Source of the DNA: Mactra quadrangularis
Taxonomy: Eukaryota > Mollusca > Bivalvia > Venerida > Mactridae
DNA: 64,000 nucleotides
Assembly (NCBI GenBank): GCA_025267735.1
Contig: CM046303.1
Coordinates: forward strand, 69,269,034-69,333,033
Reading direction: 5' to 3'
Every line of letters starts with the position of its first letter. Within the stretch, counting starts at the first letter, position 1. Below, piece by piece: positions 18,924 through 54,254 of the stretch. Under the pieces are notes generated by a model, which was not told the origin of the DNA, searched no databases, and saw only the letters and a list, made by a program, of their open reading frames with translations. The position numbers and the translations under genes were made by a program.

Positions 18924-19511
18924 CTTTAGGGAAATGTCTGGTTGACAGTGGCGTTATGTTACACTGTTCATAGAACAAGAATAAAGTGTAGCGGAGGGTT
19001 TTACTTATTCATTATTGTTATTATTTCTCTTTTTGTACAACGCCATTGAATATGTGATATAAAAATAGGCGTTTAATCAAACGAAGAAGTTTAAGTTTTA
19101 GAATTATCATAAATCTACCTAGCTTAAATATTGATTGTAGTTTCTATTCAATGTTTATAAGTTTTTTATGACACCTATAAAACGTCTCTCGATAATACAA
19201 CCAACCACTAAGAAAAATTTTGGGCTTTATGTCTTATCTTTATTGAATTAAGAATATCCCTACAAAACGTTTCATACTTGAAGTATAAAATATATTTAAA
19301 TATTCTCTACTTTGAACGCGTATTTTACACCCTCTGTAGTGGTTATCAGTTGTTACTTCTAAATTTGATGAATATATCGTTTTCCAACTTTTATAATTGC
19401 TTCAGTTGTTTATGTATCTCTATTTACATTTCTGCCCTACTTAATTTAAATCATTGGTAGGAGGGAGAATGACCGTAGAAATAATTTCAAGACCAAGCTC
19501 CACGAAAGTAT

Positions 19512-19583
19512 GCCCCGCCAGGGAATCGAACCTACGTCCCCTCGATCAGTAGACTTGCGTGCTACCAACTGAGCTCGCCGGGC
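19512..19583 (-). tRNA. tRNA-like sequence, probably a SINE head or pseudo-tRNA
   Basis: 72 nt with an A box (GAGCTCAGTTGGTAGCAC) and a B box (GGTTCGATTCC). The acceptor stem GCCCGGC/GCGGGGC pairs at six of seven positions. The D, anticodon and T stems pair poorly, and alignment puts ACT at the anticodon. The right arm keeps only its last bases (about 53,445-53,455). Confidence 0.5.
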
Positions 19584-20501
19584 GGCTTCCAGCCACTTAT
19601 AACTCGAATAATGTAACATATATAATTCTATATATCGTTCTGTTTCACATTGTTACATATTTTGAAAAATATATTTATTCTAGGTTTATAAAAAATATGT
19701 AAATTGTCTTTTCTTTGGGAAGAATTTAAGACATTAGTATAATTCATCTAAACATGTATTATGTGTTAATTGGTTTATTTAAATATTAAGTTCAGACAAG
19801 AAAATTACATAAGTATATACATGTATTACTTAAATCTAATGGAATTTTTGTGTAAATATTCAAAGTTTATTAAAATATATATTTTGATACTCATATATTA
19901 TCCGAATGGTTATGTATCGCCTGAAAAGCGACATGTATGTTTTTCAGCGGTGGCAACGTTTTCTGTAAACTTTTCCGGAGCATTTTCCATGACTATTCAA
20001 TCTACTGACTTGAAATTGCATAGGTAAATAGATCTCATAGTGCACTGCACAATAACAAAATTTATTATACTATAATTTTTGGTTTTCTGCATTTCGATGC
20101 ATTCTTTCTCCAAAACTTTTCAATTTACTGACATGAAATTTGAAAAGGGGAATAGATCTCATTTGTAGAGAGTTGCTTTTATCTGTTTCATTCATTGTCC
20201 ATAGCATCAGCCCAATTCTATTTAAGCTACTGATAATTAACTAACATGTACATAAATTTTATAAAAAAGAAGTGCAGTATACGAGAATAGATTTTTTGTC
20301 TGGCGACTTTTCCGACGTGTGGAGTTGTAGTATTTTTAATCAATATTTAAGATACGAAAGAACACATCTCTAACATTTCGATCTTATTTAAAATGTACTT
20401 TCAGATACCAATGCTAAACAAGTAATAAAATAGTATTATGAATGAAGTCAATACATTGTGACAGAATCATGATGACAAAATACAAGAACATAAACTGTAT
20501 A

Positions 20502-20583
20502 ATGATGAAAACTGTAGGAGTGGTTGTCTTTATACGTCTTTTATTATTGATTGCCGGCATAGAACCAAACCCAGGACCTACTG
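20502..20583 (+). CDS. Receptor exon 1: hydrophobic 2A-like signal peptide (left copy)
   Basis: Tandem ATG codons open a 27-codon exon. It encodes a basic start, a hydrophobic run (V7-I17, rich in Leu and Val) and then AGIEPNPGPT. The ending matches the 2A-like ribosome-skipping consensus E-x-N-P-G-P, with skipping expected between G25 and P26. The usual Asp two residues before Glu is Gly here. The exon ends in phase 1 before GTAAAAC and joins 21427 to make an Asp codon. The start was chosen because both arms keep the two ATGs and the frame. No TATA box is obvious upstream. Confidence 0.85.
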
Positions 20584-21426
20584 GTAAAACTGTATTATGT
20601 AAACAATAAAATTAAACAACAAATGTATGTGCCCTGTCAGTGTATTAAAACTGAAAACCTAGTGATTTTGATAAGTATTTGTTTGGGCTACCAATCTAAA
20701 TAGTATTGCCAATGTTAAAGGCAAGTACTTATATAAGTACAAAGTGTTTAATAAACATGTAACTACAATAAATATAGCTGTTATTTATAAATTAAGATGC
20801 ATGAAGGCATTGGGATCCTTTGCCCCATAGAAGCCTTGCTTCGGAGAGGAGCTTATACTCATTTGCAGTACATGTCCTTTTTCTGTGTTTGCGTCTTAAT
20901 TAAAAAATTTCCATTACCCATTTAATATTGATAATACTTGACACAAACAATCATTATCACGAAACAATATGTCGCGTGCAAGACCAAGACTGGTTACTCA
21001 AAAGTCAAGGTCATATAAAAGTCCAATTGCCTTGATGACGTGTTTGTTTGTGGTGTCGTGTTAAAACAAAATGTTAAAAATTAAAACCTTATCCCCCTCT
21101 TTGTATTACGAATGTGTAATGGGTCTTAATTAATTAATGTAAATAAGGCATTGTTCAAATCTTCACTTTCATCAATCGATATGACACATGCGAGGGCCTG
21201 ACTTGTAGAACCAAAGTCTATGAAAAATTAACGCATAACATAAACTTGTCCATCTTATTTTGTGTCTCTAACTTTTTAAAAGAATTTGAATGCAGCAATG
21301 CATTTACAACGTTTTATTTTGCATTTTGCTGCTTACCTTATTACCATTATGTTGTTTTATGTGATTATCATTGTTATTATGAACCCTAGTTACTATTTAT
21401 GATTTAAGACTTCCTTTATTTTACAG

Positions 21427-21791
21427 ATAAATTGGTATTGATGTTTCGGTATCAATTTCTTTTAATTGAAGTAGGAACAATCCTATTAAGAAAGTTATTT
21501 GATAAAAAAGTAGGTAATGATCTCATGACTTATTTAAAGACATATCCTAAATGTGCAAAAACCCTGAAAGTTCTGCTTGACAAAGACATTATAACCGGTG
21601 ATCAGAAAAAGTTTCTTCCCCCAATAGACAAAAATCCTGATACATCAAACTTCGACATCACCCTCCTAACATGCTTACTGAGGAACATATGTGGGTTGAA
21701 ACAACATCAAGATCCTGTGTGGCAGCAACCAGCCAACGGGGATTTGTCAATAGAAGCTGACATAACTAGGCTAAAAAACTGCAGAAATTAT
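21427..21791 (+). CDS. Receptor exon 2: most of the DZIP3-like HEPN domain (left copy)
   Basis: This 365-nt exon follows a TTTATTTTACAG acceptor and ends at the consensus donor GTGAGTAC. It encodes residues 28-149. It carries family hallmarks of the DZIP3-like HEPN domain: VGTILLRKLF near the start, FDITLLTCLLRNICGL in the middle, and EADITRLKNCRNY at the end. The final RN supplies the Arg of the HEPN R-x4-6-H motif. Reading past the donor gives a spurious 40-residue tail, so splicing is needed to complete the domain. HEPN domains are helical and many are RNases. Activity here is inferred. Confidence 0.85.
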
Positions 21792-22114
21792 GTGAGTACG
21801 ATTTACTTCTTCAGAAGCGCGTTTAACGCTGAGTTTCTAAGTCGTGATTGCCTTCGAAGAGATTTTTCATGGCATATATTACTTCATGGACCAAGTGACC
21901 TTGGTCTGCCTCCAAGGAGTTAGTTCGCCGCGATATAAATACCAACACAAAGTAACATTGTTACATTACTTTACAAAATCTCTACGTGTTTTATAATTTA
22001 TTTCACGGCTGGTGATGTCCAAGTTTTAAATGACAGAAGCAGATGTTTAAAATACAATCTAGTTTTTAGGCTTTCTATAACTAAACTATAGACTTATATT
22101 TTCGTGTTGATTGT

Positions 22115-22370
22115 GTGGTACCCGGGAATGTAGCCAATTTGTAGCTTGATAGGATTTCAAATCTAGTGTCAAAAATTGGTAATGGGTCCAAATCTCTTCA
22201 AATATACATTGCCATTATAACATGACTATAACATGTAAATTTTCCCTGTTATTAAGAAATACGGAAAAGTTGTTATCCTTGTTGAAGGGTATGTGCATGC
22301 TGGTTTATACAAGGTTTTGATTTCCGGGAAAGCTAGGTTAGGTGCGCTGGCCACCGTCAAATAATATAAG
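22115..22370. mobile_element. SINE-like repeat in receptor intron 2 (left copy)
   Basis: AGGTTAGGTGCGCTGG and TTGAAGGGTATGTGCATGC match the 15.7-kb repeat in reverse. The counterpart lies at 50700-50955, so insertion predates the palindrome. Confidence 0.55.
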
Positions 22371-22604
22371 TTGTACAAGACAGCGTCTTACCAAATATCA
22401 AGCGAATGTGTGGTTATGATTTAACTAGAGTTAATTTTTTTACATTAATTTGAATCGACCGTCAAAGTATAATGTATAGACTTTATGTGTACAATGAATG
22501 ATATAATCTGTTTATAGACTTCAGTTCGAATTTTTAATTCATACTTATTGTTGAGCAGAATTTTCTTTAATAATGATCTAATATGATATAATATTTTATT
22601 GTAG

Positions 22605-22673
22605 GTCGTACATAAAGGTACAGTTTATATTTCTGAATCAGACTTTAAACTTAAATGGTCTGAACTTTGCCAG
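22605..22673 (+). CDS. Receptor exon 3: 69-nt exon completing the HEPN catalytic motif (left copy)
   Basis: The exon sits between acceptor TTTTATTGTAG and donor GTAAAATAC. It encodes 23 residues starting VVHKGTVYIS and ending FKLKWSELCQ, the usual end of DZIP3-like HEPN domains (polar helix with a conserved Trp). Its first codons supply the His of the motif, so R-N-Y-V-V-H exists only after splicing. The exon is symmetric (phase 0 at both ends) and could be skipped without a frameshift. The right-arm copy at 50382-50450 has the same length. Confidence 0.8.
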
Positions 22674-23028
22674 GTAAAATACACATCTTTTGTTTTAAAT
22701 TCTTTATAATCTGTAACATACATTAAGTGTATAGAAAATTACCGAAAACTGAAAACATTAAGTTTTTGATTATAAAGTGCTGTGCTGATGTAAATGGAAA
22801 TGTTATTTTGCACGTTTTATGAATATTTCAAAGTTTATGAGTAATGTAATCTTACTTTTTAATTCAAATATATATGCATGTAGATTTTAGTATCATTCAA
22901 ATATATCAGATAGAATGGTAGTCAGAGATTTAATAACTTAACAATCATTGTATTTTCTTTATTGCTATCTCTAGTGGATCATTTAAACTTGCCTGTAGAA
23001 ATTCCTATATGATAATATCTTTCTTTAG

Positions 23029-23464
23029 ATTCTACACAGATTAAATATATTGTGTGGTATTCCTAACTTATCTGAGAGGATTGATGATATTGATATCAAA
23101 CCAATTGATGAACAATTAGAACAACAACATGATGATCTTCTTAAAGCGTGGTATTCAGCAGAAAGTATGTTTGAAAAAGTAATTGTTGACATGGAAATTA
23201 GTCACTCTGAATTAAAGGATAGATTGTCTGGTTTAAAAGAAGGTCAGTCTAAATTGGCGATTGGTCAGTCTGGACTGAAGGATGGTCTGTCTGAATTGAA
23301 GGATGGTCAACTTAAGATAGAAGTTGCAGTGTCTAAAATCGAACAAAGAATGGAAAACAAACAACAAAAAGATCACACTCAACTGGTACAAACCAAAAGA
23401 AGATTAGATGATTCTGAACAGCCTTCTTGTTCAAACAAACGCTCTAAATCCGATACTTATGATG
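23029..23464 (+). CDS. Receptor exon 4: coiled-coil linker with heptad repeats (left copy)
   Basis: This 436-nt exon encodes residues 173-317 and follows a TTTCTTTAG acceptor. The first part is acidic and helical. Residues about 234-275 are six clean 7-residue repeats of the type LKDGxSE, with Leu or Ile at each first position, typical of a coiled coil. A basic tail containing NKRSKSD follows. The exon ends GATG before GTGAGC in phase 1. Retaining intron 4 would add only Gly-Glu-His and a stop, in both copies. The right copy lacks exactly five of the heptads. Confidence 0.8.
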
Positions 23465-23873
23465 GTGAGCATTAAATCAACTTTTTTTATTATTTGCATC
23501 TTAAATACAAGTATATAATGGGAAAATAATTAGTTACTTCACCAAAAATTTGTATCACTGTACTATGAACATTAATTGTTGTTTACGGTACTAAAGTTCA
23601 GCGTTTTGGAAATAACTATTGAAGTTTAAAGTTTTATACACTATAGAGATGTGTTATAAATTTGACTACAACGTGAACTACTTTCTGTTTGAATTTGTAC
23701 TCTTAGCCAATGACCTTATATTAATGTTTTTACATAAGCACATGATTACACTTAACAATCTATATAATATGACCATGACGTTTTTGTTTATAGAACTATA
23801 TAAACATTAGATAAACCTTTCTGTTTAGGGTGTAAGGGGTTTCACTTTCATTGCTATCCAATCTGAATCAGGG

Positions 23874-24479
23874 CTGCGTTCAGTTAGCAGTTAGCGTTAG
23901 CCAAACACAGTTATCGATATGGACGGTTAATTGAACGACCTGTTGAATTGCGAACGTTTAAAGATGGCGGGCAAATGAGTCGTTACTTCTATTTTATTAG
24001 AAGAATTTGGAGAGAATGACTTGTTTACTTGTTTTATGTAAACGTATTGATCTAAATCAACGGGAGTATTAGTGCCGACTTCGTTAGACCTAACCCAGAA
24101 TTTAAATTTATGGGTTTTTTCGTCCGTGCACAGGCGGTACAAACAAAGTTGCCTACACATTATTGCTAAACAGCACGAACTATGGATTTAATACTACTGT
24201 TCTTTTTTACACGCGTTTTCATTGAAACAGTGAAAGTTTGTTTGTACCGGATGGGAAAACCCAAATATTTGAATTTCGGATACAGTCTATTCGCTATGGC
24301 AATTACTATTTTGCAAAATGTACTGGAACTATTTTGTTTCAGGTTGTTTCATATTCGCGTACTATATACTAAAACCGTTAGCTGTTGGCCTTAAACGTTT
24401 TCTGCTAACAGGCCGTTCAATTATTACTGTTAGCGAACGTTACAGAACGTTACAGAACGTTTGCGGTAACTGAACGCAG
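23874..24479. mobile_element. MITE, CTGCGTTCAGTTA family (606 bp), left arm only
   Basis: The termini are CTGCGTTCAGTTA and TAACTGAACGCAG. GAACGTTACAGAACGTT repeats lie just inside. The right arm reads straight through at about 49,290. Open frames inside encode nothing recognisable. Relatives are at 6517-6730, 10005-10367, 60120-60440 and 62697-62803. Confidence 0.8.
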
Positions 24480-26077
24480 GGATGTTGTCAAAACCTTTAC
24501 GTAATTGATTTTGTGGTCTCTGTTGACCTACTTCAAGAAATATGACCGCTTCATTAAAGTGTATACGTCTATAACTGACAGAACAAGTATCATAAATGTT
24601 AAAAAGCATAATTATATATTGGACACATGACTACAGCAAAAATACAATTTGAAAAATACATGTTCGTGAATTAATACTAATAGTTGATCACTAAATTTTT
24701 ATTTATTGTTTGCTTACCGAAAATTAATGTAATTTTCACCGCGGAATTTAACAATATTACGCGTATGCTTTATTTAACACAGGAACGAAATATCCATGAA
24801 AACTATAATTGTCTTCGTGTTATTACTTTGTTAAATTGAAAAGAAATGTGTGGAAACTGCTAATTTGTTCATAATTCGAATAATTTCGTCAATTTCCATA
24901 ATCGTTCGACAATTCTCGTTTTGTTAGTTGCTTACGAATTTAACCATAACAAACGGAATATTTTCTACCAAAATTCAGAGCATTTCTGACAATTTATCTT
25001 ACGATTTAGGTCTTCATGAATTACTGTAACATTATACACATTCAATATGATTGTTATTTTGTCGATTGGATAGTTAAAACATATGGACGTGTACCTTTTA
25101 TTTTTTTTTATTTCATCAAAATGAAAAAAATACTATCTGATAATAGAAATAATATTTAGAAATAATATTGCTCAGATTTGAACGTAAATGGTAGATATAG
25201 TATATCTTTAATGTTCTTAAGCATTTCAAATATGTGCATGTTTTAAGCACTGACTTTACAATTTTCTTACAGAACTTCCTAATCCAACTAAGAAATTCTT
25301 GTCAATTCATTTCCCCATAAAGGACTTAGGCGTAACTATTTTGTTAAGCTTTAAATGGTTGAAATAATTATATATGTCAATATGTATGCATAAAAACAAA
25401 GTAAGATATGAAAAATCACTCTTTTAAGCAGACTAGAACTATTTGGTTGGTATAGCAACGTAAGCAACTTAAAATTACATTTTACCATTGTTTTGTAAAA
25501 TTTAAATTTGCACGTTTATGTATTCATCAAAAAAACCTTTGTTCAATATTGTTCACAAGGATTAGAAAATGCCGTGATAAATTGTCCCATAGATAAAATA
25601 GATTTACTCCATATCTCACGTAACAGTCCTATACAAATATTTATTAATGATTAGATGGTATAGTCCTCTTGCTGTTGGAATTTATTTTGTATAAAAACTC
25701 TGATAAAGTACCAGTAAAATGGAATCAGTTAATGTTGATGTATCTATTAATGCAAATTCATAACATGCTATATTTTAATGTGCATATATGAATAATACCA
25801 TTTGCAATCATTTGTTTGTTTTGGATTTACGGTGCACCAACACAGCAAGGTCATATCGCGCCGAATTTGCAATCAGATGTTTTGTAAATCGTCGATACTC
25901 CTATTGGATATTTGCTGCTTAAATTCTTTATAAAGAAATATATTACATTGTATTACATATTATATAAAATACATTATAGCTCGCTTCAAGATATTTAAAT
26001 TACTTTCACTAGATTTCAATTTAAGATAATGTTTTTAATAGAAGGCTTTGGAAATAGTAAGACTTGGTGTTTATTTA

Positions 26078-27102
26078 CACTAGTGTCCCAGTAAATCGTG
26101 TACTTTGTCCATAACTTTCTTTCCTTACGTCACATGATGATCATAATTTACAAGACTGTTTGTTAGCCTTATTTTGATACAAATTAGGCATTTGACCAAT
26201 AAGAACTTGCATTAAAGACGTCATTTTAATGTTTAACTAATACCAGGTATGTGCATGCGGCGCAACCGCTTTTACACTTGTATATTCGTTCATACTGAGT
26301 TCAAGTGAACAGCAAAATTTACACATAAACTTTTTAATTACATTTTATTTTTACATAGACATTCGCAGAAATTATAAATATATTATCACACCAAAACTCA
26401 TATCATAAAATATATACACTAGAGTACAATACGCATTTGAACTGAAACTAAAAAATGTGACATCAGCAAGATAAGGTGACGTCAGGACAAGATTGAGTCT
26501 TTGTAATTGCAACTCAGTTTCATAATCAGCCTGGCACAACATGGATGGGTATAAATTTGAATTCAAACACATAGACAGATGAAATGAATCATTAAGTATG
26601 CCTTGTGCATACTACATATTGTAGAGAAGTTATTCATAGTGAAATATATTCACTGAATATATCGTACCAAAAACTACTGAAAGTGTTATTCAAAATTAAG
26701 TTGGAAACTTAACCATTGGGCCATTATATCATTGACCATACTAATATTTTAAGACTGATGCAACAATTTTGTATCAAAAGTATGACAAAAACAATTTTTT
26801 AAAGTAAATATGAAGTAAATACATCGTCTGTTTATGTCACTGTTCACAACAAGGCGAACTTGGAGAGTGAATAAAAATGATTTCATAGACGTGACGTCTT
26901 AATATGACGTTGACTTGCGCCGCGTTTCCATACCTAGTGTCTTATAAATTGAAGCAAAACATTTATTTTTTAATTAACCGTCTACAAATTAAGCATACTT
27001 ACTCACAACACAGGCATTTAATGGCAGTTAAAAGTTGGAGCTAAAGTTGCGCGTACTTTTTTCGCAGCAAGCAGAGTCCACGATTTACTGGGACACCCCT
27101 CG
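26078..27102. mobile_element. Mariner-like TIR element (1,025 bp) in receptor intron 4, left arm only
   Basis: The ends share GTGTCCCAGTAAATCGTG as inverted repeats, and the element is flanked by TA (26076-26077 and 27103-27104). The right arm has the uninterrupted site (one TA) at about 47,697. TA duplication and GTGTCCCA-type ends fit Tc1/mariner. No transposase frame is recognisable inside, so it is probably non-autonomous or decayed. Confidence 0.8.
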
Positions 27103-27406
27103 TATATCTTTGTGGCTAATTTTCCATTATTCCGCGGCCAATGCTCTTGAAGTACGTCACAAAAGCCAAGAATATAACTTGAGATCAAGAAAGATTTTAA
27201 TATTAGCTGCAGGATCACTGAGGAATCACTGAGGAAAACCACTTCTTCCCAAAAAGGACCTACTCCATATAAATGATATGCGTCGTAACATATGTATTTG
27301 TTTGCAATGTTTTTTTTTTTGTTAACCTAAAATTATGATAATTGAAAACTATTTCTGTATCGCTCATAATTCCTGAAATTAATTACTCCAGTGTTTTTTT
27401 TTTCAG

Positions 27407-30110
27407 ACATAAAGGAACGTCTAAAGAAGTCATATGAGACTGATTTCAGTTCTGTGTGTGTTACCCCACTTTACAGTGAGGACGATCGTTTGGATATGTT
27501 AACCATTTATACTCGACCCAAAATGGAACATGTACCATATCACAAATCTAAACAAAGTAAAGGTAACTATGAAATATCATCATATGAACAAGTATTTTGT
27601 AAAGACAATACCAAATTCAGAAATGTATTTATTACTGGAGATGCAGGTATGAAAAAACAACTTTCGGTCAGTTTATGTCATTATTATGGAGTAAGAATAT
27701 AGCTGATATTGGCTGCGATGAAGACATTCAAAATGATGCTAAATTTATGACCAACTTTGAGTTTGTATTTTACATTTTACTGAAAGAAACTGATCGTGAA
27801 GATGTTGTTAGTATGATCATTGATAAATACTTTAACACTTCATCTAAAGATGAGTTCGAAGAAAAGATAAAAACCATTGAACAAATTCTTCGAACCAAAA
27901 ACAGTCTTGTAATCTTAGATGGTCTGGATGAATGGAGACCAGACATCAGAGGTCATAGAAAACTCACTTTACCAAGAAAAGTCACATCTGACAGATGTAC
28001 ATTTCTTACAACATGTAGACCCTACAGAATTGAAACTGTCCGTCTGTCAGAAATGGACGTTGATCATCAAGTTAAGATTACAGGGTTTGATGCTGAACAG
28101 TACGTAAGAGAAGTTATAGTTTATATAAATAGATCACAAGACTCAATATATGATCACAATAGATCAATAGATCACACCAAAAAGCTAGCCGATGACTTTT
28201 TTGAACAGATACTAAATTGTGGAATGAATGAACAATTGCAGATTCCATTAATTGCATCTCAATTGATAGTTGTCTGGTTCAAGTATAAGATGGAAAATAT
28301 GAGCAAAGCTATGATATATTGTAGCATTGTAGAAATGTTGTTTGATCGAGCAATTGAAAATGAAATAAAATTTCCTTCAATAGCATCGGCTGAAGTTCAC
28401 TTTCCAGAGTCATTTTCTAAATTTACTTACTTACGACAGTATGGATGTGTATTAGAAAAAGTGTGCTTGTTATCATATCATTTGTTGTTTAACCCAAATT
28501 TCAAGACTCCTAGCCTTGTTTTTACAAAAAAACAACTAATGGCCGAGCCTTTTAACATTAGCCCAGGGGAGCTTGATTTCTTATGTCAGCTAGGCATTAT
28601 ATCAAAGAACAAGGTCATTGGAAATTTTGGTGATCAGGAACTTATGTTATCATTTTTACACATGAGCTACCTTGAATTTCTTGCTGCATTATTTGTAACA
28701 TTATTTGACAAAAATGGCTTATTTCCAGAAGCAGTGAAGAAAATAGCGATTGATGATGTGGATGGGTTTAGATATTTTCTTATCTTACTGTCAGGAATTT
28801 CTCCAAAGATGACAAATTTATTTTTTGATATCATTTACATGGAGAGAAAAGATGAATTTGATTTATTGCGCAGAAAATTAGTCACTCCTGATTTTAAAAG
28901 TAGTACATTAGACAAGATGCAACGTTGCATTATCTTAAGTTTTACAGAGATGGCTGTATCAGTATCAGATAATTCTCAAAAATATATCAGATTAGAGGAT
29001 TTTAACGTTAACAATGACCTTTTACACTTGGGTCATTCTTTAGACATCGATGAACACGCGTGTATGTATGATCATTGTCATAGTAGAGAAACAAAAGCAC
29101 TTCTTGTAATGAACAAAAGTTGTCTAAAAAGTATTTTCACAAATCGATATCTCAATGTGTTTACTAAAATCAAAGGTCTTCAATTCTTGATAATTGACTC
29201 AGTATCTCATACTAGTAAGTATGATGGATTTAATGATGTAATGTTACAAAATAAGTTAACATTGCATAGCATAAAAATGAAAGGTATTTTATTGTCATCA
29301 CAATTACCTTTGAGAAGTTTATCTTATCTGACAACAATTTGTTTTCATAATGTGCGTATGAAACATGACGTGTTTAAAGATCTGTTGTATTATATATCTG
29401 GTAATATTCTACTAGAGAATATATACCTAGATACTGTTATATGCCAGGAACATCGTTTAACACCAGGGCATCAGTATGATAAAAGGTGGCAACTGACATT
29501 AACTCTGTCTGATCATTCTAAGCTTCTTACAGTGACTTTAAAAAAAATAAATGTAATTTGTACAGAAATCAATACATCTTGTTTAAAATCACTATCTATT
29601 GAAGGAAAAACAGATCTTAATGGGTATCGAAATGTTCCTTTTCTAATATATTCAGAAATTAGCATAAAGAACTCCAATTTAAAACATCTTAGAATATACA
29701 GATACTCTGTCCGTTATTCGCATGCCAATGATGTTATAAAGGCCATACAAAGTCTTAGATACCTTGAAGATCTTTCACTAGAAAGGTTTACACTAACAGA
29801 TAATGTATCACTACAGTTACATCCTGATATTGTATGTGATAAACATATAAATGTAAAGTTGGAGCATATAACAATGAGTGATAAATGCTTTCAAGAATTT
29901 ATTGATGGCATTATTAACTGTCAATCTATGGTTAGAGTACGTATGACAAAATGTGAAGTTCGATGTGATATTTCTTCTCATCCATATTTCAAATATGGAT
30001 TTAACTCAATGGCAGGCGTGGAATACTGTATAGAGAACATACCAGGTTTGATAATGAAAGAAGAAAGCTATTGGTTTGATAACTATTTTGAATTTGAAAC
30101 AATGAAATAA
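27407..30110 (+). pseudogene. Receptor exon 5: NACHT ATPase and LRR-like tail (left copy, frameshifted)
   Basis: The exon starts after a long pyrimidine tract ending in CAG. It reads DIKERLKKSYETDF and continues to ITGDAGM, where the Walker A loop loses one base and its second Gly codon. In the +2 frame from 27675 the domain continues: Walker B LVILDGLDEW, sensor-like TTCRPYRIE, the winged-helix signature SFLHMSYLEFLAALF, then about 380 residues of irregular Leu-rich repeats ending at TAA 30108. Compared with the right copy there are several in-frame indels, for example about 11 extra residues near 28140-28175 and 10-11 missing near 29200. These suggest the reading frame was maintained until the recent break. 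Confidence 0.85.
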
Positions 30111-31606
30111 GTTACATGCAAACTATGAAATCAGGAATATTTTGATTAAGGTTTTTTCGAGATATAAAAAGATTTCAGGCCTATAATTCAAATTTAGCCT
30201 TGATTACGGTATACTTTCTTTAAAAGCGCATTAAAATTAATATTTACCCGCAGTCGTGTTGAAAGGATTAGAATGCTCTTCTTGGAATCTATTATTCCGA
30301 GTTCGATTTGCGGTCGTGGCTGATACTTGTCAAAGTCTGAAAGTTCGCCATGCAATTATGATTAACCTTTTTCCTGTGTCCATGTGAATGAAACCCACAG
30401 TGAATTTTTGTTCTTATGGCACTCATACCATTGTGAGACATTTCCTTATAGTTTATCCCATATGATAATTACGAAGCCATTGTCATTATGGCGAATGATT
30501 GTAAGTCGCATAATATCCTTTATCGTACAAGTAGCTATAAGACCGCTTTCGCTTAGTTGATACATTTACAATGGTCATGTTAGGATAAGAATACAGGATT
30601 AACTATTTCTAAAGTATATTTTATCAAAAATTAGTGTTAGAGCGTATTGTATAAAAAATGTCAAGACTTCACTATAGTTCTAGTACCAATCTTATCAATT
30701 ATAGATACGTGATCTTTGGTCAGTAAAGGTAAATGCTGCGTTTGATTTTGATTTGTCATTGCGTAAGTCCCATTGTATATTGTATTGACGTAACATGAAC
30801 TTACTTTTGGCAAAGTATTCAGATATGTGTCTGGTTTAAGTTTATACTTTCACATTATTTGATAATATGTATGTTCATTAAATGTCAATTTTAAAACATT
30901 TCTAAATTGCCTCAGTGACGTGGTGAAATTATAGCACTTTCCTGTCAAATACATAATTTACTCTCTCAATATGTATCGGTATAACAAAAGTTGTATAAAG
31001 TTTTTCTACAATAGATATGATTATACTAAATGAATTTTGAATTGGATTTTTAAATGAGAAACATGATTGCATAGATGGGTTGGGTGTTATGGTTTAAACC
31101 TGCCTGACATTTTAACATAGTAAGAGGCAGAAGGAATTAAGACTATCAACCTTTCTCGAAACTTTAATGACTGTGTGTCTCCATTTATTGAAATAGCTGG
31201 CAATGTTCTAGGGAAATCTCAGTGTGTTCGTGCTGATAAAAACAAAACTTGAAAAGTCCATTAAACTTGGTTTAACTCATTGTTTCAGTAAGAATACTTG
31301 AACATATGATCAGTCAAAAATACAACAAAATTGAAATGATAACAAGCATACTGATATATATGACAAGATATAATTTGTTTTTGTCTTATATTTTCTTGTA
31401 TAATAATATTGTTGTTATTTACATAATATTATAGTTTATTATGATGTTGAAATCTATTTTATATCACAAATGATGTATGTGTGATAGAGATAAATAAAAA
31501 TAGTAACTTAATTAAGTGTATTGTGTTTTATTCTGATTGTGTTTTATTCTGATAAAAATATAAAATGTAATATATGTAAATGTATCAGCAGATGACCAGC
31601 AGATGT
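30111..31606. other. 3' flank of the left receptor copy
   Basis: AT-rich and matched by 43211-44701 inverted. It probably includes the 3' UTR. Candidate AATAAA signals are too common here to choose one. Confidence 0.5.
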
Positions 31607-32281
31607 ACAGGAGAAATCTAAGTTGTCCCGTATAGTGAAGTACTAAGAACATCCACAGTTCAGTTTCTACGACTTTTATTGTATTAAAATAAGTCTAACT
31701 TTCAGTCTGCTGTCCACTACTGTACACACTCTCTCACATTTCCTAAGTCTTATATAGTATTGAGGCTTATGTAAGTATTGAAATTGGTTTATATAAAAGT
31801 CTAGACCTATTAATACCACTAATAAATATTACATGGAAAATTATGTATAATATTATAGTTCTATTACATTAACCTGTCACAACTTGAATAATTACACACT
31901 CACTGAATGTGTTATTATTCAACCTCATTTAAAACATTGAGCCCCAAATCCACAGTAATAATTGATAATCTAACTATACATGCTACGATTTTGAATATCT
32001 GGGAAATAATAAGTTCGAAAGGGTTAAAAATAACAGATTCAGTGACCGTGTAATTATTTAAGTTGTGACAGTTTAATGTAATAGAACTATAACTACATTG
32101 AAGAACATGAATAACAAGTAATTAAGAACAGATGTTTATTGAAAGGTACCCCAATATCTGACAAAATCGTCTATCAACTGTGACACATGAATGAATTGAT
32201 GGCCAATGACCAATGTAATATTATGTAAATAGTCTCATGAAATGTTTCAATCTTTGACAAATATTTGACACTACGCGACAA
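31607..32281. other. 675-bp segment present only in the left arm, containing a MITE
   Basis: The right arm joins directly across this position near 43,211. It contains a hairpin element at about 31853-32092, whose ends ATAGTTCTATTACATTAA and TTAATGTAATAGAACTAT are complementary, followed by CTGTCACAACTT. Confidence 0.65.
31853..32092. mobile_element. 240-bp MITE with about 45-bp TIRs
   Basis: 31855-31897 and 32048-32090 are near-perfect inverted repeats with one or two mismatches. The short interior has no frame. Confidence 0.7.
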
Positions 32282-33219
32282 GGTTCCACCTTACAAGAAC
32301 AATTGCTTTTTGTTCTGAAAGAAATTTACATTTGACCTATATGTAAGTTGGTACTGAGAGGGTCGCATGCTAAGTTATACTCAGAAACTATCAAGAATTA
32401 AAACTTTTTTAGTTTGATACATTCAACCCTGAATTGGGGTAATCAACCTTCTGGTTTGACATCTTCAATCCTGAATTGTTGTTTTATGAAAGTCATTCAG
32501 TCTTTAACCATATCACAAAATTATAAAAAAGAAATATGAATAAAGAAAAAAGTATGATGGTAAAAAAACAAAAAATGTAGTTAGATGATATATAACTAGA
32601 ACTGCCACCAGTGGCGAAAATACCCCCGCAAAGGCAACATTAAATGATGACAGCAAGTCAACATTGTGGAAGTCCAAAAGGATAAATTTAATGTTGTATA
32701 GTTCGTTTTTTCTAAACTGTCGAAGCTTGAATAATTTCACGGTGACTGAATGCATTGTTTTTGTACTGGCGGCCTAATTGTTATTAAATATACTAAATGT
32801 ATGACTAAAACCTAGCATGCCGCTGTGAGACACACTTTTTATTTCACGGATGTTCACAGATATCACGACAATACTTCTAACAAACGCATTCACCGTAAAA
32901 TTATTCATGTTTTGTCAGTTAAGAAAAAACGAACTATAAGAAGCATAAAAACTATAAAAAGAACAGGATGCAACTATTAAATTAAAATTAAACAGCAAAT
33001 TACAGTGTAATTTACTTTAGATAAGAAAAAGCAAAATGAACAGTAGTTGTCATATTCAAATGATTTCTACACACAAATGAACCCCATTTGGTCATTATGG
33101 ATGTAAAATGGAACAACAGACGAAGAGTGATGACATTTAAACTCATCATGATTATGTTGTAACCAGATGACCAAAACAAAGAATGTGTTTGTAATTGTTT
33201 GATAAATAACTAAACAAGA
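32282..33219. other. Arm sequence between receptor 3' flank and dispersed repeat
   Basis: Mirrored at 42286-43210. Both contain an internal hairpin (ATTCACCGT.../CACGGTGACTGAATG and AAAACGAACTATA words), probably a decayed MITE. The frames here are not supported. Confidence 0.5.
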
Positions 33220-33480
33220 GGGTCCTGAGGACCCTGGAACGCTCACCTGAGTATTAGAAGCTTATACATGTAATAGCTGACAGAATTTTAACAGTTTTAG
33301 CTGATGAAAACTGTAATCCCTGGGGCATTTAATTTTGAACCCGGGTCATAATTAGAACAATTTTTGTACAGAAATTTCAAAGTAACATAACATACTAAAT
33401 ATGAAAGCTTCCGGTCGACATTGAACATGTAGAAGGAAAACGGCCCTTTTCAGGGCCAACTTAAGTCCACCATTGTATTT
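33220..33480. repeat. Dispersed molluscan-type repeat (left arm copy)
   Basis: AACAAGAGGGTCCTGAGGAC, CGCTCACCTGAGTA, ACCCGGGTCATAATTAGAAC and ATATGAAAGCTTCCGGTCGA appear in the order seen reversed at 840-1215. Confidence 0.6.
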
Positions 33481-33784
33481 AAAATGAGCTATTTATCCCC
33501 AGTATTTTAACCTATTGCGTGGTTATTAAAAGCCCACACAGAAATGTTGCTTTTCAGTGCGTATTTTAAATGATTTTATACCAGTAATTTGAAATAAAAA
33601 GGGTTATCAAAGTCATCATTTTACGGGCGGCGTTCCGATCTTTAAAACAAAGTCAGTGTCGTGATTAGACATCCTAGAGTTACACGAAGGTTCCAGTCGA
33701 AGCCAGATACAACCCTTTGTTTAGTAATTGTGGCATTTGTAGATTTAACTTTTCTATAATAGTAACCTTGGAAATTGTTTCACA

Positions 33785-34570
33785 ATTATAGGACATTTGC
33801 ACTCGAGACATTTGTCCACTTCTTTTTGCCGAGGTGGACATCCCTCTCCCCTCATGTGTTTTGAAAAGTCGATCATTTGTCACCCTGCTTATTTTGAATA
33901 TGTCTCTGTTCATGTATGGAAAGTAATGTTTTTAAAATAAATGATAAAAAAACAATTTGTTTAAAGAAAGTAATTTGCCCTGAATGTACAAATATAAGAA
34001 AGTCTCAACAAATAATCGTAATCTTTCTTTTTCTCAATACATCACAAAGAAGATTCAATTAAAATCATAATATTATATAATAATTCAGTTTACTGTTGGC
34101 ATGGTTGTTTAACACTTAACAATTAAGCTATGGCTGTGACCCCCAATCAATTGGGAAAACTTTTGTTCTAAATGGGTAACATCCTTCACAGTTTACAAAT
34201 TTAAGTGTTGAATAACACTTGTCAATTAATTTAAGACCCCTTATTAACAGTCAAAACGTTTTTATATAGACTGTACCTTCCTTCACAGTTTGCACACGAA
34301 ATGTCATTTTAATTCTATTTTATTTCGGAACACAATTAATAATTGCCGTTAATTAAAGAACTCAATTCGATCATCAAAGTTTTTATTTGTTCAATCATTT
34401 AAACTAAGAAAGGTCAACAATTAGGACATTAACGTTTTATACTAACCTCTTTTTTGACAGCGCGGACATTTGCCCCCCTCTTTTTTAAGGGCGGACATTT
34501 GCCCCCTCGTGTGTTTTGACAGGACGGACATTTGCCCCCGGCCCCCTAAATGTTTTGGAGGGCGGACATA
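33785..34570. repeat. GGACATTTGCCCCC-type minisatellite, left arm
   Basis: Two blocks (33785-33900 and 34455-34570) share GGACATTTG, TCTTTTTT, CCTCRTGTGTTTTGA and a second GGACATTTG, about 660 bp apart in direct orientation. The 77-codon frame over the first block is not thought real. Confidence 0.7.
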
Positions 34571-35399
34571 TAAGAGCACTGCATATAATCATGACCTTGG
34601 ATAACTTTATTGAGTTTCGATTTCTTCGCCTACCACTCATGGACAAAATGAAGCATACATTGGCGAAATGTAGATTACATTATTTAAATATATAGGCTCT
34701 ACAAACAACTAACTACATCACTAAATTGTCTTTTCCATCGATAGGCCGTGCCTATAATTTTATTTGTGACGTCGTAACAAACGAAGTTAAAAGATCAAAG
34801 ACTTACATTCTGTCATTAGTTATCTCCCCTGATCTAAATGATTTAAATATTTTACTAATGATTTTTTCATCTGTAAACAGATATAATATTCCATTTATTT
34901 CCTATTCACAATAATGTCTTCATATATATTATAATTAAATCTAAAATATTTGATGTTTTGTTAGTATAAAACATTAAAACATTATGTACATGTAAAACGG
35001 TTCTTGCATTCATTAATGATGTATTGAGAATATATTAAATAATAGAAAACCATACTTACTAAAAGATGTAATGATTTGGTTCCTTTGGTTAACGTTTATA
35101 CTCACAATTAAGTTATTATATATCATTATTACATACATCATAAGGCGAATGTCATCTTGTTTAGAATGTTCTTTTAAAAGCAACCCAAGAAGGCAAAGCA
35201 TACCTAAATTTTACTGGTCAAGACAAAACATGAATAAATTTATTGATTGATCTTATATCTTACAAAAACCTATGAGAAATCTGCGTATTTTTATTAATTA
35301 ACAAAACTTTGATGAACGAAACAGTATTTTGTTTAGACACCAATGTTATTTTTGTTAAAGTGTTGTCTAGTATGTCTTACAATGTATTCATGTTCTATA

Positions 35400-35436
35400 T
35401 AAATGATACCGCTAACCCTAACCCTTATTCCCATTC
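35400..35436. repeat. Short telomere-like tract at the inner arm border
   Basis: CTAACCCTAACCCTTATTCC gives two exact TTAGGG units plus a degenerate one. It is mirrored at 40130-40166. It is more likely a SINE tail microsatellite than a telomere. Confidence 0.6.
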
Positions 35437-39989: not shown

Positions 39990-40165
39990 GAGCAGAGTTC
40001 TATTTAAAAGAAGCGTGTTTAGTGTTTGAAATGTCCCAGGTTCGAATCCTACTTGGTGCATAGCTAAGAAATTTACCTTCAATTATTTTACTCCACCCAA
40101 GTGTAAATGTGTACTGTGAGAGTCACCTTGAATGGGAATAAGGGTTAGGGTTAGCGGTATCATTT
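39990..40165 (+). mobile_element. tRNA-derived SINE remnant at the loop/right-arm border
   Basis: A B-box-like CAGGTTCGAATCCTAC occurs near 40,030. It is followed by CTCCACCCAAGTGTAAATG, the tail text common in tRNA-type SINEs, then a short AGGGTT-rich tail. The A box is degraded. Confidence 0.55.
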
Positions 40166-40924
40166 ATATAAAACAAGAATACAGTGTAAGACATACTTGA
40201 CAATATTTAAACAAAAATAACATTAGTGTCTAATACTGTCTGTTTTTTGTAAGATATAAGATCGATCAATAAATTTATTCATGTTTTGTCTTGACCAGTA
40301 AAATTTAGGTATGCTTTGCCTTCTTTGGTTGCTTTTTAAATAACATTCTAAACAAAATGACATTCGCCTTATGATGTATGTAATAATGATATATAATAAC
40401 TTAATTGTGAGTATAAACGTTAACCAAAGGAACCAAATCATTACATCTTTTAGTACGTATGGTTTTCTATTATTTAATATATTCATTAATACATCATTAC
40501 TGAATGCAAGAACCGTTTGACATGTACATAATGTTTAATGTTTTATACAAACAAAACATCAAATATCTTAGATATAATTATAATATATATGAAGGCATTA
40601 TTGTGAATAGGAAATAAATGGAATATTGTAACTGTTTACAGATGAAAAAATCATTAGTAAAATATTTAAATCATTTAGATCAGGGGAGATAACTAATGAC
40701 AGAATGTAAGTCTTTGATATTTTAACTTCGTTTGTTACCACGTTACAAATAGGCACGGCCTATCGATGGAAAAGACAGGCAATTTAATGATGTAGTTAGT
40801 TGTTTGTAGAGCCTATATATTTAAATGATGTAATCTCCATTTCGCCAATGTATGCTTCATTTTGTCCATGAGTGGTAGGCGAAGAAATCGAAACTCAATA
40901 AAGTTATCCAATGTCATGATTACA

Positions 40925-41715
40925 TGCAGTGCTCTTAAATGTCCGCCCTCCAAAACATTAAGGGGGCCGGGGGCAAATGTCCGTCCTGTCAAAACACACG
41001 AGGGGGCAAATGTCCGCCCTTAAAAAAGAGGGGGGCAAATGTCCGCGCTGTCAAAAAAGAGGTTAGTATAAAACGTTTATGTCCTAATTGTTGACCTTTC
41101 TTAGTTTAAACGATCGAACAAATAAAAACTTTGATGATTGAATTAAGTTCTTTAATTAACGGCAATTATTAATTGTGTTCCGAAATAAAATAGAATTAAA
41201 ATGACATTTCGTGTGCAAACTGTGAAGGAAGGTACAGTCTATATAAAAACGTTTTGACTGTTAATAAGGGGTCTTAAATTAATTTACAAGTGTTATTCAA
41301 CACTTAAATTTGTAAACTGTGAAGGATGTTACCCATTTAGAACAAAAGTTTTCCCAATTGATTGGGGTCACAGCCATAACTTAATTGTTAAGTGTTAAAC
41401 AACCATGCCAACAGTAAACTGAATTATTATATAATATTATGATTTTAATTGAATCTTCTTTGTGATGTATTGAGAAAAAAGAAAGATTACGATTATTTGT
41501 TGAGAATTTCTTATATTTGTACATTCAGGGCAAATTACTTTCTTTAAACAAATTATTTTTTTATCATTTATTTTAAAAACATTACTTTACATACATGAAC
41601 AGAGACATATTCAAAATAAGCAGGGTGACAAATGATCGACTTTTCAAAACACATGAGGGGAGAGGGATGTCCACCTCGGCAAAAAGAAGTGGACAAATGT
41701 CTCGAGTGCAAATGT
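40925..41715. repeat. GGACATTTGCCCCC-type minisatellite, right arm
   Basis: This is the inverted counterpart of 33785-34570, reading GGGGGCAAATGTCCGTCC and CAAAACACACGAGGGGGC. Confidence 0.7.
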
Positions 41716-42019
41716 CCTATAATTGTGAAACAATTTCCAAGGTTACTTTTATAGAAAAGATAAATCTACAAATGCCACAATTACTAAACAAAGGGTTGCA
41801 TCAGGCTTCGACTGGAACCTTCGTGTAACTCTAGGATGTCTAATCACGACACTGACTTTGTTTTAAAGATCGGAACGCCGCCCGTAAAATGATGACTTTG
41901 ATAACCCTTTTTATTTCAAATTACTGGTATAAAATCATTTAAAATACGCACTGAAAAGCAACATTTCTGAGTGGGCTTTTAAGAACCTCGCAATAGGTTA
42001 AAATACTGGGGATAAATAG

Positions 42020-42285
42020 CTCATTTTAAATACAATGGTGGACTTAAGTTTGCCCTGAAAAGGGCCGTTTTCCTTCTACATGTTCAATGTCGACCGGAAG
42101 CTTTCATATTTAGTATGTTATGTCACTTTGAAATTTCTGTACAAAAATTGTTCTAATTATGACCCGGGTTCAAAATTAAATGCCCCAGAGATCACAGTTT
42201 TCATCAGCTAAAACTGTTAAAATTCTGTCAGCTATTATAAGCTTCTAATACTCAGGTGAGCGTTCCAGGGTCCTCAGGACCCTCT
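42020..42285. repeat. Dispersed molluscan-type repeat (right arm copy)
   Basis: Inverted counterpart of 33220-33480, ending CAGGGTCCTCAGGACCCTCT. Confidence 0.6.
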
Positions 42286-44701
42286 TCTTTATTTATTCAT
42301 CAGAAAATACAAACACATTCTTTGTTTTGGTCATCTGGTTACAACATACTCATGATGAGTTTAAATGTGATCACTCTTCGTCTGTTGTTCTATTTTACAT
42401 TCATAATGACCAAATGGGGTTCATTTGTGTGTAAAAATCATTTGACATATGACAACTACTGTTCATTTTGCTTTTTCTTATCTATAGTAAATTACACTGT
42501 AATTTGCTGTTTAATTTTAATTTAATAGTTGCATCCTGTTCTTTTTATAGTTTTTATGCTTCTTATAGTTCGTTTTTCTTAACTGACAAAACATGAATAA
42601 TTTCACGGTGAATGCGTTTGTTAGAATTATCGTCGTGATATCTGTGAACATCCGTGAATTAAAAAGTGTGTCTCACAGCGGTATGCTAGGTTTTAGTCAA
42701 GATATATTTAATAACAATTAGGCCGCCAGTACAAAAACAATGCATTCAGTCACCGTGAAATTATTCAAGCTTCGACAGTTTAGAAAAAACGAACTATACA
42801 ACATTAAATTTATCCTTTTGGACTTCCACAATGTTGACTTGCTGTCATCATTTAATGTTGCCTTTGCGGGGGTATTTTCGCCACTGGTGGCAGTTCTAGT
42901 TATATATCATTTAACTACATTTTTTGTTTCTTTATTATCATACTTTTTTCTTTATTCATATTTCTTTTATAATTTTGTGATGTGGTTAAAGACTGAATGA
43001 CTTTCATAAAACACCAATTCAGGATTGAAGATGTCAAACCAGAAGGTTGATTACCTCAATTCAGGGTTGAATGTATCAAACTAGAAAAGTTTTAATTCTT
43101 GATAGTTTCTGAGTATAACTTAGCATGCGACCCTCTCAGTACCAACTTACATATGGGTCAAATGTAAATTTCTTTCAGAACAAAAAGCAATTGTTCTTGT
43201 AAGGTGGAACCTATGATTTCTCCTGTACATCTGCTGGTCATCTGCTGATATATTTACATATATAACATAATATATTTTTATCAGAATAAAACACAATCAG
43301 AATAAAACACAATACACTTAATTAAGTTACTATTTTTATTTATCTCTATCACACATACATCCTTTGTGATACAAAATAGATTTCAACATCATAATAAACT
43401 ATAACATTATGTAAATAACAACAATATTATACAAGAAAATATAAGACAAAAATAAATTATATCTTGTCATATATATCAGTATGCTTGTTATCATTTCTTT
43501 TTTGCTGTATTTTTGACTGATCATATGTTCAAGTATTCTTACTGCAACAACGGGTTAAACCAAGTTTAATGGACTTTTCAAGTTTTGTTTTTATCAGCAC
43601 GAACACACTGAGATTTCCCAAAAAAATTGCCAGCTATTTCAGTAAATGGAGACACACAGTCAAAGGTTGATAGTCTTAAGACATTTCGCCTCTTACTATG
43701 TTAAAATGTCAGGCAGGTTTAAACCATTACACCTAACCCATCTATGCAATCATGTTACTCATTAAAAATCCAATTCAAAATTCATTTAGTATAATTATAT
43801 TTATTGTAGGAAAACTTTATACAACTTTTGTTTCACCGATACATATTGAGAGAGTTAATTATGTATTTGACAGGAAAGTGCTATAATTTCACCACGTCAC
43901 TGAGGCAATTAAGAAATGTTTTAAAATTGATATTTAATGAACATACAAATTATCAAATAATGTGAAAGTATAAAATTAAACCAGACACATAACTGAATAC
44001 TTTGCCAAAAGTAAGTTCATGTTACGTCAATACAATATACAATGGGACTAACGCAATGACAAATCAAAATTAAACGCAGCATTTACCTCCACTGACCAAA
44101 GATCAAGTATCTATAATTGATAAGATTGGTACAAAACTATAGTGAAGTCTTGACATTTTTATACAATACGCTCTAACACTAATTTTTGATAAAACATACT
44201 TTAAAAATAGTTAATCCTGTATTCTTATCCTAACATGACCATTGTAAATGTATTAACTAAGCGAAAGCGGTCTTATAGCTACTTGTACGATAAAGGATAT
44301 TATGCGACTTACAATCATTCGCCATAATGACTATGGCTTCGTAATTATCATATGGGATAAACTATAAGGAAATGTCACTCAATGGTATGAGTGCTATAAG
44401 AACAAAAATTCACTGTGGGTTTCACATGGACACAGGAAAAAAGGTTAATCATAATTGCATGGCGAACTTTCAGACTTTGACAAGTATCAGCCACGACCGC
44501 AAATCGAACTCGGAATAATAGATTCCAAGAAGAGCATTCTAATCCCTTCAACACGACCGCGGTTAAATATTAATTCTAATCGCTTTTTAAGTAAAGTATA
44601 CCGTACATCAAGGCTAAATTTGAATTATAGGCCTGAAATCTTTTTATATCTCAAAAAATACCTTGATCAAAATATTCCTGCTTTCATAGTTTGCATGTAC
44701 A
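42286..44701. other. 3' flank of the right receptor copy
   Basis: Inverted counterpart of 30111-33219 without the 675-bp segment. No gene recognised. Confidence 0.5.
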
Positions 44702-52558: not shown

Positions 52559-54254
52559 TATACAGTTTATGTTCTTGTATTTTGTCATCATGATTCTGTC
52601 ACAATGTATTGACTTCATTCATAATACTATTTTATTACTTGTTTAACATTGCTATCTGAAAAAACATTTTAAATAAGACCGAAATGTTAGAGATGTGTTC
52701 TTTCGTATCTTAAATATTGATTAAAAATACCACAACTCCGCACGTCGGAAAAGTCGCCAGACAAAAAACTATATTCGTATACTGCATTTCTTTTTTATGA
52801 AATTTATGTGCACGTTAGTTACTTATCAGTAGCTTAAATAGAATTGGGCTGATGCTATGGACAATGAATGAAACAGATAAAAGCAACTCTCTACAATGAG
52901 ATCTTTTCCCCTTTTCAAATTTCATGTCAGTAAATTGAAAAGTTTTAGAGAAAGAATGCATCGAAATGCAGAAAACCCAAAATTATAGTATAATGAATTT
53001 TGTTATTGTGCAGTGCACTATGAGATCTATCTACCTATGCAATTTCAAGTCAGTAGATTAAATAGTCATGGAAAATGCTCCGGAAAATATTACAGAAAAC
53101 GTCGCCACCGCTGAAAAACATACATGTTGCTTTCCAGGCGATACCAAACCATTCGGATATAAATGAGTATCAAAAATATATTTTTAATAAACTTTAAATA
53201 TTTACACAAAAAATCCATAAGATTTAAGTAATACATGTATATACTTATGTAATTTTCTTGTCTGAACTTAAAATTTAAATAAACAAATTAACACATGATA
53301 CGTGTTTAGATGAATTATACTAATGTCTTAAATTCTTCCCAAAGAAAAGACAATTTACATATTTTTCTATAAACCTAAAATAAATTGATTTTTCAAAATA
53401 TGTAATCAATGTGAAACAGAACGATATATATAGAATTATATCTGTCCCTGGCGGGGCATACTTTCGTGGAGTTTGGTCTTGAAATTATTTCTACGGTCAT
53501 TCTCCCTTCTACCAATGATTTTAAATTAAGTAGGGCAGAAATGTAAATAGAGATACATAAACAACTGAAGCAATTATAAAAGTTCGAAAACGATATATTC
53601 ATCAAATTTAGAAGTAACAACTGATAACCACTACAGAGGGCGTAAAATACGCGTTCAAAGTAGAGAATAGTTAAATATATTTTATACTTCAAGTATATAA
53701 CGTTTTGTAGGGATATTCTTAATTCAATAAAGATAAGACACTAAGCGCAAAATTTTTCTTAGTGGTTGGTCGTATTATCATGAGTTTATAGGTGTCATAA
53801 AGAAACTTTTAAACATTGAATAGAAACTACAATCAATATTTAAGCTAGGTAGATTTATGATAATTCTAAAACTTAAACGTCTTCGTTTGATTAAACGCAT
53901 ATTTTTATTTCACAAATTCAATGGCGTTGTACAAAAAGAGAAATATTAACAATAATGAATAAGTAAAACCCTCCGCCTTAAATACATGTTGTATGTACAC
54001 TTCATTCTTGTTCTATGAACAGTGTAACATAACGCCAATGTAAACCAGACATTTCCCTAAAGGTGTCGAAACATCACCTTTAAAGGGCTCTTAATACACC
54101 CCCAAGGGTGTCGAAACATCACCTTTAAATGATCCATATTTTTAAGCAGTAATGCCGTCGGGACTCACTGTACTAAACCTTCTGTCACTGATTTTTTTTC
54201 TTATTTATTGGTGCCACAAAATTGAGGTCTTTGGATTTTGATGATCTTAGACCA

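Follow-up and report, generated by a model that had tools for sequence, protein, structure and literature searches.

A StopGo-type leader exon ahead of HEPN-NACHT receptors in the clam Mactra quadrangularis

INTRODUCTION

The 64,000-nucleotide stretch of Mactra quadrangularis DNA analysed here (the window, used throughout for this whole stretch) holds two receptor genes whose first exon encodes a hydrophobic leader with a 2A-like peptide at its end, which raises the question of whether ribosomes skip at this peptide and thereby part the HEPN-NACHT receptor from its leader, or whether the motif is incidental. 2A-like, or StopGo, peptides are defined by the core (D/G/C/N)(V/I)ExNPGP, and the account of them that we draw on describes StopGo in cellular genes as very rare, the cellular example it discusses being the NOD-like receptors (NLRs) of sea urchins (PMC12846837). 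In Strongylocentrotus purpuratus, N-terminal 2A-like signal sequences were reported on 85 of 241 NLRs, with 14 NCBI entries for a 26-aa N-terminal form (Roulston 2016, PMC4981915). Skipping there was put at about 80% by a qualitative estimate, a skip-dead version sent the reporter mainly to the Golgi, and dual targeting was followed with reporters in HeLa and plant cells (PMC4981915).

RESULTS

Two receptor genes in an inverted duplication

The window contains an inverted duplication with one receptor gene per arm and a spacer of about 4.7 kb. The arms are 91-95% identical by segment and 94.6% identical around the leader; they are a single duplication, so agreement between arm A and arm B alone is weak evidence. 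The features are as follows.

18924..35436, + strand: left arm of the inverted duplication
20469..20583, + strand: arm A exon 1, encoding the 37-residue leader MMTKYKNINCIMMKTVGVVVFIRLLLLIAGIEPNPGP, with 4 further nt before a phase-1 donor
20556..20579, + strand: arm A StopGo core octapeptide GIEPNPGP, predicted skip between the final Gly and Pro
21427..21791, + strand: arm A exon 2, DZIP3-like HEPN
22605..22673, + strand: arm A exon 3, remainder of HEPN; RNYVVH (Rx4H) crosses the exon 2/3 junction
23029..23464, + strand: arm A exon 4, coiled coil, exceeding its arm B counterpart by 105 bp
27407..30110, + strand: arm A exon 5, NACHT and LRR-like part; P-loop frame broken at 27650
40130..54062, - strand: right arm of the inverted duplication
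52477..52591, - strand: arm B exon 1, leader with GVEPNPGP end
52481..52504, - strand: arm B StopGo core octapeptide GVEPNPGP
51283..51647, - strand: arm B exon 2, HEPN
50382..50450, - strand: arm B exon 3
49695..50025, - strand: arm B exon 4, coiled coil
44702..47400, - strand: arm B exon 5, NACHT and LRR-like part, intact

The arm B gene model has five exons and 1192 aa with no interruption. Arm A has a one-base gap relative to arm B at 27650, inside the P-loop, which shifts the frame. The remaining length differences of exon 5 between the arms are all divisible by three, which points to a recent or artefactual loss of frame; the arm A gene is a pseudogene of recent date, unless the gap is an assembly error. 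Two other open frames were seen in the window: one of 429 residues in the spacer (37987-39276), with CCHC-like zinc knuckles, gag-like by eye and without a Pfam match, and one of 255 residues (12036-12803) with weak DDE_1 similarity (E 0.015, below the cut-off).

The leader exon and its predicted splicing

The exon 1 product of both arms reads MMTKYKNINCIMM(K/E)TVGVVVFIRLLLLIAG(I/V)EPNPGP, that is, a hydrophobic leader with AG(I/V)EPNPGP at its end. In the six-frame translation of the window the StopGo core occurs exactly twice, as GIEPNPGP at 20556 (+) and GVEPNPGP at 52504 (-); about 8e-5 occurrences were expected, which rules out a chance motif. By the core octapeptide definition of PMC12846837 both copies belong to the StopGo/2A class. 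The leader ORF starts in frame at ATG 20469 in arm A and at 52591 in arm B, an additional in-frame ATG lies 27 nt further upstream, right after a stop, and the MM with which the window leader starts is also found in two Mactra antiquata homologues (P0001 and P0002). Four nt past the Pro codon, exon 1 gives way to a phase-1 GT donor (GTAAAA), and the exon 2 acceptor, TTTTACAG, matches that phase. The original prediction of a 2A-like motif in exon 1 of both arms, spliced in phase to the HEPN exon, is thus borne out; its placement of that exon at 20502-20583 and 52477-52558 gave the exon end correctly and the start too late.

Counting the final Pro of the core as residue 1, both window copies have a Met at residue 8, so that a start within exon 2 is possible. 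The arms differ at 5 of the 115 sites of exon 1 (4.3%, two synonymous and three non-synonymous changes) and at 3.5-5.9% of intron sites, and arm-to-arm conservation of the exon, with no excess over the introns, is a weak sign of selection. Over 12 leaders (the two of the window and 10 of M. antiquata), the maximum 11-residue Kyte-Doolittle mean lies between 2.5 and 3.2. An Arg interrupts the hydrophobic run of the window leader, and several M. antiquata leaders have no charge there, for example MVGALWFIGVLLVMSG.

The same prediction described an Asp-to-Gly change at the start of the core, correctly, and took it as a possible cause of lowered efficiency. That second part is not supported: Gly belongs to the current StopGo core as a standard functional variant, it is as common as Asp at position 12 in RNA viruses (PMC12846837), and a duck virus GxExNPGP skips (PMC6249498); on this literature we reject Asp-to-Gly as a defect. 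The residues before the core Gly are LLLLIA. Judged by eye, the AG, whose Gly is at position 12, and the Pro at 15 agree with the description of motif 5, which ends (A/G/S)G, pairs Gly at 12 with Pro at 15, and lies outside the set assayed in that account; the L-rich run resembles motifs 2 and 6, in which Asp is found at position 12 (PMC12846837). Activity of an L-rich run together with Gly is therefore a prediction, which counts against the StopGo reading.

Homologues in M. antiquata and in venerids

A whole-protein similarity search with the window receptor gave 104 proteins, the nearest 13 of which are all from M. antiquata (best match 51% identical over 99% of the query). Ten of these 13 begin with a leader ending in G(V/I)ExNPGP directly ahead of HEPN, and the FRYQ-like start of HEPN follows the motif after 6-7 residues in these carriers and 8 in the window. 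The other three have N termini that look like decayed relics of the leader motif, namely MAGIASNPGT in P0003 and P0011 and MAGVSPT in P0013. None of the 10 M. antiquata carriers has a Met between the motif and the start of HEPN; the first one past the skip site comes at residue 34 to 190 (Pro = 1), inside or past HEPN, so that an intact HEPN requires translation through the leader.

Across the 11 aligned carriers the first core position is always Gly, and the residue before it is Ala or Ser in 10. Six of the eight core columns are invariant; among 784 ungapped 8-column windows only the Walker A and Walker B stretches rank equally high, and this ranking is partly circular in that the 11 carriers were picked by the motif. 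The two variable columns are V/I and x, the columns that are also free in known 2As; position 15 takes P, S, R, Q, K or E.

The motif was sought in 120 homologues, listed from 197 matches. A tree of 37 proteins places the window receptor and the 13 M. antiquata rows on one side of a branch with 100/100 support, and none of the 22 venerid homologues in it has the core motif. The presence of the leader requires three changes on this tree, fitted by one gain and two losses; rows P0092, P0008 and P0013 are long-branched and their placement is unsure. The expectation of an NPGP exon in orthologues therefore held within the clade of the window and M. antiquata and failed for the 22 venerid homologues. 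A search with the leader alone, too insensitive to reach further, gave six candidates with P0001 as the sole homologue. Among the matches P0078-P0103 (mostly on ENA contigs that are perhaps microbial, P0092 being from Nematostella), many pair a DZIP3-type HEPN with NACHT or TPR domains.

Linkage of the motif and HEPN exons across the genome

In the 979-Mb assembly from which the window comes, the Gly-form DNA pattern was found at 178 places (reversed control 0), and the V form, I form and Asp form at 104, 69 and 153 places, respectively (reversed control 0 for each). HEPN exons were collected with the window HEPN exon as query, and 150 of 208 candidates were scored, one of which contains a stop. 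The linkage count used all 69 I-form places and 100 of the 104 V-form places, which end at C19:5.34 Mb as listed, so that the remaining four may be on C19. For at least 87 of the 150 scored HEPN exons a same-strand Gly-form motif lies no more than 10 kb upstream (median distance 1292 bp); the loci are paralogues, often clustered, and the counts are not independent events. Among the listed places, pairs within 10 kb numbered 0 for each control orientation (downstream on the same strand, upstream on the opposite strand, downstream on the opposite strand), and chance does not explain this sense-only arrangement. What was originally proposed for the two window genes, a HEPN-NACHT receptor whose first coding exon is a 2A-type leader, is supported well beyond them.

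The leader itself was read at 20 of the 87 pairs (the two of the window, 16 more, L002 and L012); the remaining pairs are known by motif only. Most V-form places listed (79 of 100) sit ahead of a listed HEPN exon, against only 8 of 69 I-form places. Of the first 20 V-form places listed, 19 hold a short leader reading frame whose GT(A/G)A donor follows the Pro codon by 1 or 4 nt, phase 1 in either case. With a HEPN profile built from 14 rows, arm B among them, a same-strand HEPN was found downstream at 16 of these 20 places; one is a retroelement-like ORF, and within 9.4 kb two had NACHT only and one had neither. From these last three places it is 14-20 kb to the following HEPN exon listed. At all 16 loci with HEPN, and likewise at L002 and L012 (18 of 18), the pyrimidine-tract acceptor closest to HEPN on its upstream side has the phase that matches the phase-1 donor.

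Beyond 14 Mb on C19, 29 HEPN exons have no Gly-form motif upstream among the listed places, and excluding them the count becomes 87 of 121; these exons may be a subfamily that never had the leader or one that lost it. The venerid homologues, the three M. antiquata homologues with relics, and these 29 exons without a listed motif together indicate that the leader is dispensable to some receptors. No Asp-form place was found within 20 kb of HEPN exons thought leaderless (54 of the 153 places compared with 25 HEPN exons, although an I-form leader was afterwards recognised at two of these exons).

Other occurrences of the motif were noted along the way. Seven tandem GVE(P/L)NPGP motifs, spaced by about 201-205 bp, lie at C5:30692285-30693528. 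Three places at C1:27.68-27.92 Mb (L005, L006 and L007) show a different leader-like frame, with up to 81 residues before the core, FLSLLLLVQGIEPNPGP at its end and then a possible GTAAGT donor. Asp-type places are mostly dispersed, 10 of the 100 listed (153 in total) lying within 200 kb of another; five DVESNPGP places on one strand within 0.6 Mb (C13:47271588-47856453) are perhaps another leader family. Retroelement-like ORFs with a Gly-type 2A near the N terminus were seen at L025, L009 and L010; that of L025 runs into an APE endonuclease (Exo_endo_phos 7e-12), and the other two are ORF1-like by eye. A retroelement origin of the window motif was considered and rejected, the window having no other NPGP and the V-form places mostly preceding HEPN exons, as counted above.

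Domains of the receptor downstream of the leader

Exon 2 of arm A matches Pfam HEPN_DZIP3 (8.2e-19), and all 14 rows compared (window B and 13 M. antiquata) retain the R, N and H of the Rx4H motif; by Pfam match and Rx4-6H the domain is a DZIP3-like HEPN, which likely cuts RNA. NACHT is matched at 1.6e-9 in arm B and at 1.2e-4, below the Pfam cut-off, in the arm A frame. Arm B has NACHT with Walker A and B and an LRR-like C terminus; in arm A the P-loop is frameshifted. The LRR-like assignment rests on the predicted structure of a homologue (P0012, mean pLDDT 79), which has a low-confidence leader helix at residues 3-15, HEPN helices starting at residue 31 and strand-helix repeats towards the C terminus; in the PDB it matches NLRC4 best (E 1.8e-23, with a TM of only 0.32 when normalised by query length).

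Between the arms, exon 5 is more divergent (7.6%) than the introns. As point values without a significance test, exons 2-4 have a dN/dS of 0.46, residues 374-594 one of 0.69 and residues 594-774 one of 0.43; in the LRR-like C-terminal part (44702-45960) the values are 2.0 for 774-994 and 1.3 for 994 to the end. Values above 1 in the LRR-like part and below 1 in HEPN and NACHT place the change mainly in the presumed sensor.

DISCUSSION

Exon 1 is probably a working StopGo leader of a large HEPN-NACHT receptor family, with skipping likely and a cytosolic receptor starting at Pro as the main product. In its favour are the core in 10 of 13 M. antiquata homologues, the sense-only linkage to HEPN exons, the matching splice phases, the lack of a Met between motif and HEPN in the M. 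antiquata carriers, and the tree; Gly-type cores work elsewhere, as in the duck virus GxExNPGP (PMC6249498), and sea urchin NLRs have a functional leader of comparable design (PMC4981915). Against it are the receptors that do without the leader, the ordinary conservation of exon 1 between the arms and the Met at residue 8 of both window copies. As the ribosome makes the leader, the Leu-rich run and (A/S)G(V/I)ExNPG would act in the exit tunnel, and the leader peptide would be released after Gly. Translation would then resume at Pro to give a cytosolic receptor, with HEPN beginning 6-8 residues later; ribosomes that fail to skip would yield a product with a hydrophobic N terminus that could be taken into the ER or held in a membrane. 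We infer skipping, its efficiency and these two locations from the motif and its gene context, which are themselves observed in the gene structure, the phase, a second species and the family-wide sense-strand linkage.

Within the StopGo reading, dual targeting may be the selected function, a set fraction of ribosomes skipping to give a cytosolic sensor and the rest sending the receptor through the ER, at a ratio tuned by the sequence. The sea urchin reporters are a precedent (PMC4981915), and hydrophobic runs occur in all 12 leaders examined, several M. antiquata leaders being uncharged in the run; the Arg in the window leader's run counts against it, as do the three motif-less M. antiquata proteins, which in the existing gene models start at the relic without a hydrophobic leader. 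That those proteins lack motif and hydrophobic leader alike suggests that the cytosolic, leaderless form is the needed one, and we regard dual targeting as possible, at somewhat less than even chances. A leader that acts chiefly as a translational brake, ending in release without resumption so that receptor output follows the state of the elongation machinery, for example in stress or infection, would draw on one of the three proposed 2A outcomes, for which a link to eEF2 has been postulated (PMC4981915); we think it unlikely.

It is quite unlikely that the leader is a plain signal peptide or membrane anchor with an incidental NPGP and no skipping. The run is hydrophobic, as such a peptide demands, but a signal sequence has no need of ExNPGP, which has been kept between homologues that are mostly 31-65% identical overall, and we know of no obvious place for a HEPN-NACHT protein in the secretory pathway. 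An accidental exon, or a retroelement remnant next to the receptor, could point to the retroelement-like ORFs with Gly-type 2A in the same genome (the APE ORF of L025) and to the 153 mostly dispersed Asp-type places. It would have to account for all 87 listed motif-HEPN pairs within 10 kb being in sense order, for matched phase at every one of the 18 loci tested and for the leader in a second species, and we consider it extremely improbable.

A larger scenario, which we think unlikely, is that a StopGo leader, perhaps derived from retroelements in the same genome, was acquired in the clam lineage and set ahead of much of a family of HEPN RNase receptors. Production of the leaderless cytosolic receptor would in that case hinge on something ribosomes do for RNA viruses as well, and receptor location or amount could be switched by the ratio of skipped to fused product, following the translational state of the infected cell. 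A second, distant animal group with a StopGo-type motif ahead of at least 87 of 150 scored HEPN exons would make StopGo recurrent in animal immune receptor biology, and one gene family with apparent natural losses offers a setting in which to test the leader's purpose. Bivalve HEPN-NACHT gene models may also mis-assign the mature N terminus.

Among known systems, viral StopGo with Gly at position 12 (PMC12846837, PMC6249498, PMC11512398) shares with the clam receptors the core G(V/I)ExNPGP and, as in motif 5, an Ala or Ser before the Gly; the clam L-rich run resembles the Asp-linked motifs 2 and 6 (PMC12846837). Viral StopGo splits long polyproteins, whereas the upstream product in the clam would be a short leader only. 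The pearl oyster DZIP3-like HEPN-NACHT family, in which Rx4H is taken as a sign of RNase activity, likewise combines an N-terminal HEPN with Rx4H and a NACHT in a large lineage-specific family; unlike for the clam receptors, its description, as far as available, mentions no 2A or leader (PMC9646362).

The Gly-type core also has copies in retroelement ORFs of the window's own genome (L025), a likeness to the 2A-like sequences that a 2013 study by Odon reportedly described in non-LTR retrotransposon ORFs. At L025 the frame continues straight into the APE domain, with no splice donor needed after NPGP, whereas the receptor leader is predicted to be spliced. A literature search returned no HEPN-NACHT protein with a 2A; the systematic eukaryotic 2A survey (Rao 2025) and the 2013 study were outside its reach and may list bivalve cellular 2As.

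The closest likeness of design is to the sea urchin NLRs, where a 2A-like peptide stands at the very N terminus of a NACHT receptor, as a short hydrophobic leader with an ExNPGP end, in many paralogues (PMC4981915). The clam is a mollusc and the urchin an echinoderm; the clam effector is HEPN and the urchin effector of DEATH type, and the clam core is Gly-type where the urchin core is D(V/I)ExNPGP, with skipping assayed in the urchin and predicted from sequence in the clam (PMC4981915). The clam receptors thus share with the sea urchin type an N-terminal 2A on a NACHT-LRR protein, and lack its Asp-type core and its DEATH effector. N-terminal 2A on NLRs is already known from sea urchins; what is new, relative to the literature that our search returned, is the mollusc, the HEPN effector, the Gly-type core and the use of the motif across much of a receptor family.
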